IMG/VR virus record: IMGVR_UViG_3300013126_000151 | Span: 1 to 30,901 of that record | DNA: 30,901 bases | Strand: one strand, 5' to 3' | Source: a virus | Part shown: positions 4,042-28,279 of the stretch, piece after piece | Position numbering within the stretch: the first letter of the stretch is position 1 | How the letters are laid out: each line of letters begins with the position of its first letter | Made by a program: the position numbers and the translations under genes | The notes under the pieces: model-generated | Seen by the model: only the letters and a program-made list of their open reading frames with translations | Database searches by the model: none | Told to the model about the DNA's origin: nothing

Positions 4042-5301
4042 ATGAACTTTTTATCATACATGCTGGGCTATTGGGGCTACACCAAAACCACCATCGGCAC
4101 CCAGCCATACAACACACAACCATTTGGCGGCACCGGAACCAACGGCGTCACCGGCATACCCGAGCAAATCAGCACCGTTTACACCTGCATCGATAGGCTA
4201 TGCAAAGCCATTAGCCGAATGCCTATCTCCATTTATTCAGATACAACCAGCGGACGCACCGAACTGAAGTTTCATCGCCTGTATTACCTGTTGAGGTACC
4301 AGCCCAACCCACTGCAAAACGCCCAAACATTTTGGGAAACAGTCGAGTTTCACCGCCTGAAATTTGGCAACGGCCTGGTGCGATGCCACAAAGACCCCAC
4401 CACCGCATACGTTACAAAATTCGAAATCATACACCCGTTGAGGTTGCAGGAAATCATAGTCACCGGCGACACCATGACCTATCGCATCACACGCACCGAC
4501 GGATACGGAACTGAAACGGTAGATTCAGCCGACATGCTCCACTTTAAAAACATTTCAGAAGATGGCTATGTCGGGCTTAACATATTAGAAGCGCTCAAAC
4601 GCCACACCAACATCAACGAACGCGCCACCGCCCACATCGACAATTTTCACAAAAACAACGGCGTGCAATCAACAGCACTGGAAACATCATTTCCGGGCGA
4701 CCTTTCGGCACAAGGTAAGCTGGCAATGGACGACCAGCGTAAAGATTTTTTAAACACAAACGGCGGCCCCGACAATTCAGGTAAACCTATGTTACTACCA
4801 GCATTTACCAAAGTAGTAAAACTCAATTTATCGTTTGCCGACAGCCAGCTAATTGAAACCCTGAAATACACCCGCGAAGAAATCGCCGCCGCCTTCGGAA
4901 TTCCGCTGTTTATGATCGACGGCACAGCCGAAAAACTCGACATCGAGCAGCTAACCCTATTATTCCGCACCAACACCATCGGCCCCATCGTATCCGTTTA
5001 TATCGCCGAATTCCTCGCAAAGCTATTCACAAAAGACGAAATACTCCTGAAGGGAATAAAGCCGGAGTTCGACACCTCAGTCATCATCGAAATGGACTAC
5101 ACCAAAAAAGTAGCCACCATAAAAGAGCAAGTAGTAAACGGATTAATGACACCAAACGAAGCCGCCGCCAAACTAGGAAACAAAACCATTCCGGGCGACT
5201 TCGGAAATAAACACTACATGCAAGCTCAATACATACCGCTTGAAAACTATCCGGAATATTCCACACTTCAAAAAAACGATCCAACCCTAAAAACCCAATA
5301 A
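4042..5301 (+). CDS. Portal protein, HK97 family
   Basis: 419 aa, the usual length for HK97-type portals. Family-like segments are the N-terminal STVYTCIDRLCKAISRMPI, the middle FHRLKFGNGLVRC and HFKNISEDGYVGLNILEAL, and the C-terminal clip/stem region YTREEIAAAFGIPLFMIDG followed by EQLTLLFRTNTIGPIV. Twelve copies form the DNA channel at one capsid vertex, to which terminase docks. Gene order terminase, portal, protease, capsid is the standard HK97 order. Confidence 0.92.
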   Translation: MNFLSYMLGYWGYTKTTIGTQPYNTQPFGGTGTNGVTGIPEQISTVYTCIDRLCKAISRMPISIYSDTTSGRTELKFHRLYYLLRYQPNPLQNAQTFWETVEFHRLKFGNGLVRCHKDPTTAYVTKFEIIHPLRLQEIIVTGDTMTYRITRTDGYGTETVDSADMLHFKNISEDGYVGLNILEALKRHTNINERATAHIDNFHKNNGVQSTALETSFPGDLSAQGKLAMDDQRKDFLNTNGGPDNSGKPMLLPAFTKVVKLNLSFADSQLIETLKYTREEIAAAFGIPLFMIDGTAEKLDIEQLTLLFRTNTIGPIVSVYIAEFLAKLFTKDEILLKGIKPEFDTSVIIEMDYTKKVATIKEQVVNGLMTPNEAAAKLGNKTIPGDFGNKHYMQAQYIPLENYPEYSTLQKNDPTLKTQ

Positions 5302-27649: not shown

Positions 27650-27723
27650 CGCGCGGTAGAGAAGTTGGCCATCTCGCGGGAATCATAGTCCCGAGGTCGC
27701 AGGTTCGAGTCCTGCCCGCGCCA
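27650..27723 (+). tRNA. tRNA with anticodon CAT (Met or Ile-lysidine type)
   Basis: Full cloverleaf: acceptor CGCGCGG (27650-27656) with CCGCGCC (27716-27722), 6 of 7 pairs with C1-C72 unpaired; D stem GAGA/TCTC; anticodon stem CGGGA/TCCCG with loop ATCATAG, anticodon at 27684-27686; T arm GCAGG-TTCGAGT-CCTGC. CCA is not encoded. The mismatch at 1-72 and the A11-U24 pair resemble initiator tRNAs, but the G29-G30-G31 run is shifted by one, so Met elongator, initiator-like or tRNA-Ile(CAU) cannot be told apart by eye. Confidence 0.85.
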
Positions 27724-27898
27724 CAAGGCAACCGACAGCAGGGACCGACAACAACATGAATTGAACCTAAAGCGCAAAGCGCGTTCCGGTAAAGGTAAAA
27801 ATAAGCCGGATGACACCTGGAAAGAACCGAACAGGACGGAGCCAAAACGAATCAACGATTGAAATGTTGTCTGGCAGCCGGGAAAGACCGGCAAACAT
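27724..27898 (+). other. Non-coding spacer with RNA-like secondary structure
   Basis: 175 bases with no credible gene between the tRNA and the tRNA-like element. It can fold: ACAACAT (27751-27757) with ATGTTGT (27864-27870) as a closing stem; inside, TCCGG with CCGGA and CCTG with CAGG; then GCCGG with CCGGC just before the tRNA-like element. Minus-strand reading frames here are antisense artefacts of the tRNA. No known RNA family is recognised. Confidence 0.35.
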
Positions 27899-27956
27899 TC
27901 CTGATTAGCTCAGTTGGCAGAGACATGCAACGCCGGTTCGAGTCCGGCATCAGGAT
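27899..27956 (+). ncRNA. tRNA-like element without anticodon arm
   Basis: Acceptor strands TCCTGAT (27899-27905) and ATCAGGA (27949-27955) pair 7/7. TA, a D arm with GCTC-AGTTGGCA-GAGA (3 of 4 pairs) and a perfect T arm GCCGG-TTCGAGT-CCGGC are present. Only eight bases (CATGCAAC) join the D stem to the T stem, so the anticodon arm is missing. It is either a deleted tRNA gene or an RNA with another job. It lies 4 bases before the region taken as the upstream tmRNA piece. Confidence 0.6.
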
Positions 27957-27960
27957 CAAT

Positions 27961-28250
27961 GTTCGTTGAAACTATTTTGAAACTGTTTGGACGCGGGTTC
28001 GATACCCGCCACCTCCACCATTTCGCCAATGCGCTAACCCGTCGCGTTAGTACGGCGATCAGAAGTGAGTAGCCATAGGCAGCCTGACAGCTTATAAATG
28101 CAGATGCCTAAATGGGGGTGTTTGGTTTTGACAGGCAGAAAGTAGAGATAGCGGAGAACATTAGCCAACAAATGGCAAAACAATAAACATTTTTGACAGC
28201 GAGGCTAAAGCAGCAGCGTAGTTGAACGGCTGGCCACCGAAAAAAGGCCA
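27961..28250 (+). ncRNA. ssrA: Circularly permuted (two-piece) tmRNA
   Basis: The upstream piece ends with a T arm (GCGGG-TTCGATA-CCCGC, 27993-28009), acceptor strand CACCTCC (28010-28016), A and an encoded CCA (28018-28020). The downstream piece begins GGGGGTG (28114-28120) and TTTGGTTTTGACAGG, the conserved 5' start of tmRNA. The acceptor strands pair 7/7, with G3-U70, the alanine identity pair. GAGATAG (28145-28151) can pair with CTATTTT (27972-27978) as helix P2. The tag frame from GGC 28174 reads GKTINIFDSEAKAAA, stop TAG 28219-28221. A hairpin (TGGCC/GGCCA, 28231-28250) follows. The outer ends are estimates. Confidence 0.8.
28021..28113 (+). other. Intervening segment between the two tmRNA pieces
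   Basis: 93 bases from the encoded CCA to G1 of the 5' piece, to be removed if the tmRNA is permuted. It can fold into two hairpins: TCGCC (28023-28027) with GGCGA (28053-28057) enclosing CTAAC/GTTAG, and TAGGCA (28076-28081) with TGCCTA (28105-28110). These bring the 3' and 5' ends of the tRNA-like domain together, as expected for a processed loop. Confidence 0.6.
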
Positions 28251-28279
28251 CATTTTTAAAACAGCAGAACCAAAATAAA

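Follow-up and report, generated by a model that had tools for sequence, protein, structure and literature searches.

The permuted tmRNA gene

The window, meaning the whole 30,901-nucleotide stretch of viral DNA that was analysed, carries a circularly permuted tmRNA gene at 27957-28221, found by two independent programs, ARAGORN and the Rfam model tmRNA_permuted (RF04321). The Rfam model matches end to end, from 27961 to 28221, with a score of 74.7 bits (E 8e-13) against a curated cut-off of 47 bits, while ARAGORN reports a permuted gene with the 15-residue tag GKTINIFDSEAKAAA. The 3' half, with the T arm and a CCA reaching to 28020, comes first and is followed by a 93-nt spacer and by the 5' half, which begins at 28114. 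This order is opposite to that of the standard one-piece tmRNA of Bacteroidota, where the 5' end lies before the tag and the 3' end after it. A covariance scan of the window with beta_tmRNA (RF01850) gave 44.5 bits, below the 84-bit cut-off of that model.

The original prediction had proposed a permuted two-piece tmRNA here, and two of the checks it named, by covariance model and by ARAGORN, came out positive. Its positions for the CCA (28018-28020), the 93-nt gap and the GGGGGTG at 28114 proved exact when the sequence was re-read, and all seven acceptor pairs form as it had said, including G3-U70, the alanine identity pair. Its start at 27961 needs correction, as the acceptor piece reaches three bases further upstream, to 27958 or before, because helix P2 needs those bases. 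The tag frame had not been part of that prediction. The acceptor strand GGGGGTG is directly followed by TTTGGTTTTGACAGG, and the predicted duplex between the pieces allows P2 to be read as ACAG/CTGT, AAAGTAG/CTATTTT (with GAGATAG as an alternative register to AAAGTAG) and GAACATT/AATGTTC.

Table 1. Coordinates of the RNA genes and their parts in the window
Feature	Position	Strand	Source or remark
tRNA-Met(CAT), at the head of the RNA cluster	27650-27724	+	ARAGORN; RF00005 54 bits; same place in L122-L124
tRNA-like element, 58 nt, no anticodon arm; 3' end abuts acceptor piece; proposed processing mark	27899-27956	+	
Acceptor piece (P2 3' strand, T arm, acceptor strand, A73, CCA)	27957-28020	+	5' end putative
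T arm GCGGG-TTCGATA-CCCGC	27993-28009	+	sequence, Rfam
Acceptor 3' strand CACCTCC (28010-28016), A73 (28017), encoded CCA (28018-28020)	28010-28020	+	sequence, Rfam
Intervening sequence, 93 nt, removal expected	28021-28113	+	
Coding piece	28114-28230	+	ARAGORN, Rfam; 3' end putative
Acceptor 5' strand GGGGGTG, 7/7 pairs with 28010-28016 including G3-U70	28114-28120	+	
P2 5' strand, partner 27958-27986 of the other piece	28131-28162	+	duplex prediction, swap test
Tag frame GKTINIFDSEAKAAA and TAG stop, hydrophobic end	28174-28221	+	ARAGORN
Hairpin TGGCC-N10-GGCCA, then CA plus five T; candidate terminator at gene end	28231-28257	+	fold

No significant fold was found in the spacer (z -1.37). A scan for consensus terminators and sigma-70 promoters gave no matches, the hairpin behind the gene escaping it on account of a loop of more than 8 nt. 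Nor did the region upstream of the tmRNA contain a full Bacteroidota-type promoter.

The phage and its host

The 30.9 kb record encodes a terminase, a portal protein, a protease, a tyrosine integrase and an endolysin. The integrase, whose gene lies 3.7 kb from the tmRNA, is of Bacteroidota type (Arm-DNA-bind_5, Phage_int_SAM_5), and its matches among phage records are phages of Porphyromonas, Cellulophaga, Bacteroides and Phocaeicola together with unnamed ones. TerL shares 66% identity with a prophage of Sunxiuqinia indica, 63% with a prophage of a Prolixibacteraceae MAG and 41% with Gaoshiqia sediminis. Of the 29 examined open reading frames of the window that reach 100 aa or more, not one has a Shine-Dalgarno site, compared with 42% in control contigs with AND-type tags, which fits the expectation for Bacteroidota. 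The phage origin and Bacteroidota host put forward in the original prediction agree with the gene content and with the TerL matches to Prolixibacteraceae prophages, and by these features the window comes from a temperate Bacteroidota phage (host in Prolixibacteraceae or near). A gene for SmpB was not found in the window phage.

In the nearest phages (L122-L124), the tRNA-Met and the adjacent open reading frame are both present, with no tmRNA between them. Since these relatives lack it, the tmRNA is an accessory gene that would be dispensable to the phage, and since they keep its flanks, it represents an insertion within a genuine phage gene order rather than an assembly join. At the same place the three phages have a conserved hairpin (L122:4661-4716, L123:1023-1080, L124:4558-4613) with the loop TTGGTCC...GGTACGTCA and with stems that vary compensatorily (GTGCGCC/GGCGCAC, GTTGCGCC/GGCGCAAC, GTTGCTCC/GGAGCAAC). 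This hairpin has no match in Rfam and is a candidate for a new structured RNA.

Relatives in Bacteroidota genomes and viral contigs

In line with what the original prediction had said of the phylum, 40 of the 41 Bacteroidota genomes sampled have a one-piece tmRNA. The cut-off of the permuted model was passed by 2 of 395 sampled Bacteroidota genomes, and an order-level sample (n=295) added one further permuted tmRNA, with the tag GNKIESKIAA. The Sunxiuqinia genome (G020) holds both forms: a one-piece tmRNA with the tag GENNYALAA, intact on another contig, and a permuted tmRNA (L162, 75.8 bits) in a prophage with an antirepressor, a RecT-like protein and an integrase, whose tag GKTIQMFDYEAKVAA is homologous to that of the window. 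Likewise, the Bacteroidota genome G256 combines a one-piece tmRNA (GEDNYALAA) with a permuted prophage copy encoding GKVIQMNNAPVRLAA. Another candidate, L257 in G574, was dropped, as ARAGORN gave no confirmation.

A search of IMG/VR with a DNA pattern built from the first three members returned 61 viral contigs. All 61 loci have an open Gly-start tag frame, where the pattern dictates tag residues 1-2 and the TTTGAC motif and leaves the remaining tag and the upstream half free. An upstream acceptor partner pairs at 7/7 positions in 58 of the 61, by several pair combinations such as GGGGCTG/CAGCTCC. A second DNA pattern, made from the tag peptide, gave no additional Gly-start permuted tmRNA. Separately, a simple permuted-order pattern matched at least 120 loci in IMG/VR (L002-L121), most of them confirmed by ARAGORN and, among the matches listed, mostly with proteobacterial-type AND tags. 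By such pattern searches, permuted tmRNA genes are a common feature of viral contigs.

Against phage records, BLAST with the window tmRNA as query produced short matches only, to the T arm and the 5' end, and these pointed to crAss-like records. ARAGORN finds permuted tmRNA in the crAss-like phages cr50_1, cr10_1, cr7_1 and cr124_1 and in Chryseobacterium phage MA9V-3, all labelled just SsrA in their records. In the crAss-like phages, tags end in AIGA and LAVA (L244, L246) or NVA (L247, L248), and L244 and L246 have a tRNA-type T arm within the intervening sequence.

Covariation between the two pieces

The relatives fall into a GK group, which includes the window, and a GE group, named after the beginning of their tags. 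In the GK group the mean P2 duplex energy is -17.2 kcal/mol for native strands and -11.8 kcal/mol when acceptor-side strands are swapped between members; in the GE group the corresponding values are -16.7 and -11.5 kcal/mol. Native pairs are thus about 5 kcal/mol better (z about -9), and their value was reached in 0 of 100,000 permutations in either group. The strand-swap test was used since MAFFT with RNAalifold recovered just P1, the T arm and one stray pair, P2 being missed because its length varies. Together with the predicted duplex, it bears out the cross-piece P2 of the original prediction, which had also called for a search of related phages: in relatives both halves are preserved and change in a compensatory manner. 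Between the window and the Sunxiuqinia homologue, P2 changes from GAACAUU/AAUGUUC to GAACAAA/UUUGUUC and the codons of the tag often change synonymously, which argues for a functional structure and a translated tag.

Tag peptides

Tags of the GK group follow GK[TSV][IV]... and mostly have 14-16 residues; 16 of the 24 distinct ones end in Ala-Ala, as do all 19 distinct one-piece tags of Bacteroidota. The window tag ends in AAA and the Bacteroidota tags in LAA or MAA, which leaves the fate of the tagged protein (degradation) uncertain. The GE group (L169-L225) has 10-residue tags of the form GE[QHT]VE[ML]AMAA. Its members seem to be marine phages, and their intervening sequence is mostly 17-23 nt long. 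An assignment of the GEQVE[ML]AMAA group to Bacteroidota was considered and not made because its use of Shine-Dalgarno sites (28%) exceeds that of the GK group (7%). Unusually long or basic tags are predicted for L178 (GKAKNFSMRRRSVHRMMRAAA), L193 (GKKVSFDRMVNQRHEARVYACAA) and L044 (GKFSIASEGRVVPMTRQQLKAVA).

tRNA-like elements next to the acceptor piece

The element that precedes the acceptor piece of the window has a fully paired acceptor stem (TCCTGAT/ATCAGGA, 7/7) and a perfect T arm (GCCGG-TTCGAGT-CCGGC), and on its own it folds modestly better than its shuffles (z -1.55). In 8 of the 24 distinct GK members, the P2 strand is preceded at a distance of a few bases at most (about ten in L165) by a tRNA or tRNA-like element, leaving two thirds of the group with no abutting element. 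Two of these eight are normal tRNA-Met genes and a third is called by ARAGORN as a tRNA of unknown type. ARAGORN misses the other five, that of the window among them, most of which lack the anticodon region or have it enlarged or altered. Abutting elements occur in none of the 23 proteobacterial-type permuted genes used as controls and in 2 of 26 GE members. Other tRNA-like elements, whose acceptor and T arms are intact but whose anticodon regions are enlarged or odd, lie near the tRNA-Met or the permuted tmRNA in L124 (about 4410-4555) and L162 (1410-1480).

RNase P and RNase Z recognise their substrates mainly through the acceptor and T arms. For this reason, the abutting elements may mark the cutting site and so set where the acceptor piece begins.

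Function, origin and alternative explanations

The gene is very probably a phage-carried permuted tmRNA which, once cut by host enzymes, rescues ribosomes and tags proteins in addition to the one-piece tmRNA of the host. An acquired gene that has lost its function would account for its absence from the closest relatives and for an upstream tRNA-like element without anticodon arm. Such decay is nevertheless improbable, as P1 pairs at 7/7 positions, the T arm, the encoded CCA, the three-part P2 and the tag frame are all intact, and the substitutions relative to the Sunxiuqinia homologue preserve the pairing of P2 and often the amino acids of the tag. Equally, little credit can be given to an inhibitor or decoy that binds SmpB or ribosomes and blocks host trans-translation. 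There is a precedent in the RNA of phage DS6A, consisting of a tRNA-like domain (TLD) only, since RNA of this type is reported to inhibit endogenous tmRNA (PMC11915505, PMC4131195); however, DS6A has little beyond the TLD and no tag frame, whereas the Bacteroidota-phage family keeps a coding frame with a conserved peptide. The use of ssrA as an attachment site by many phages (PMC11915505), along with the tyrosine integrase of the window phage, could suggest integration into a host tmRNA gene, with the fragment left behind being rearranged by circularisation. A remnant of this kind is very hard to reconcile with two ends, a tag and a P2 that are all present and co-evolved, with a tag wholly unlike that of the host, and with an integrase gene 3.7 kb away; it was rejected given that the Sunxiuqinia genome holds two copies, its standard ssrA remaining intact on another contig.

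Rescue and tagging by a phage-carried tmRNA are compatible with more than one origin of the gene. Transfer from the permuted lineages of Alpha- or Betaproteobacteria, instead of a separate permutation in Bacteroidota, is a serious though not the expected possibility: gene order and acceptor type (GGGGGTG/CACCTCC) are the same, and the beta model reaches 44.5 of 84 bits, but the Gly-start tags, the TTTTGAC motif and the short 5' domain speak against it. So does a tree in which 20 of the 21 Bacteroidota-phage sequences, the GE group and 9 one-piece tmRNAs of Bacteroidota form one cluster (100/99), separate from the majority of proteobacterial permuted sequences. This tree is based on 51 columns of the tRNA-like domain and on a set picked in part by the TTTGAC pattern, so its support for a separate permutation is weak, and a separate permutation within the Bacteroidota sphere is only weakly favoured. 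A fuller proposal, in which the two-piece form arose separately from the one-piece tmRNA of the host, the tRNA-like element serves only as a cutting mark and the tags (GK[TSV][IV]..., a third without Ala-Ala end) drifted from the host protease signal, is tentative as a whole.

Proposed mechanism

Gene order, pairing, tag frame, family and the one-piece host phylum are read directly from the sequences. From these, the likely function is that of a second tmRNA which relies on the AlaRS, SmpB and tRNA-processing enzymes of the host. The gene would probably be transcribed jointly with the upstream tRNA-Met and tRNA-like element, and host tRNA-processing enzymes would cut the transcript: cleavage at the 3' end of the tRNA-like element would release the acceptor piece at about 27957, the coding piece would receive its 5' end from an RNase P cut in front of G28114, and trimming from the 3' side would expose the CCA at 28020. 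The two pieces would then be held together by the acceptor stem and P2, and charged with alanine through G3-U70. With host SmpB as its partner, the RNA would release ribosomes that have stalled and append the tag GKTINIFDSEAKAAA, so that the tagged product would carry ...AGKTINIFDSEAKAAA. Transcription, cleavage sites, charging, tagging and use during infection are here deduced from the gene, whose RNA would be supplied on top of the one-piece tmRNA of the host.

Relation to known tmRNAs and significance

The occurrence of permuted tmRNA in Alphaproteobacteria, Betaproteobacteria and Cyanobacteria is established (PMC11915505). The two-piece tmRNAs of Proteobacteria and Cyanobacteria (RF04321; RF01849, RF01850, RF01851) share with the window family the order of the pieces, P1 with G3-U70, the T arm, the cross-piece P2 and a tag frame; the window family differs by its occurrence in phages, its Bacteroidota hosts, the Gly-first tag, a distance of about 60 nt from start to resume codon and the sub-cut-off beta score. 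From phages, 53 two-piece tmRNAs, mostly aquatic, have been reported (PMC9004378). Among them, the marine methylophage Melnitz likewise bears a permuted tmRNA, although of alphaproteobacterial type and linked to a glutamine riboswitch, unlike the Bacteroidota phages with their GK tags and tRNA-like elements. The crAss-like phages and MA9V-3 are closer, being Bacteroidota phages with permuted tmRNA and mostly Gly-start tags, but their tags are of another type (GNNFVTDYTQLAVA, GNVIDINKYVAKLEVAA) and no tRNA-like element abuts upstream as in the window. The one-piece tmRNA of Bacteroidota (GENNYALAA, GEDNYALAA) has TLD motifs near those of the phage family and the same Gly resume codon, and differs in its one-piece order, a resume codon at about 95 nt and a 9-residue tag.

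The original prediction had regarded a permuted form on a phage of this phylum as new. This appears to hold for the Bacteroidota-phage lineage, since permuted tmRNA of Bacteroidota phages was not found described in the main texts of the openly available papers searched, and not for phage-borne permuted tmRNA as such, already published (PMC9004378) and present in GenBank in crAss-like examples. The kind of RNA is known; what appears new is the lineage, its distinctive tags and the tRNA-like arrangement.

Public phage records thus hold permuted tmRNAs under a plain SsrA label, and Sunxiuqinia indica is a named species with both tmRNA forms. Accounts of two-piece tmRNA usually centre on three bacterial lineages, and a phage family in a one-piece phylum opens the question of how permutation arises, as well as why phages bring a second rescue RNA and whether their different tags send proteins elsewhere.
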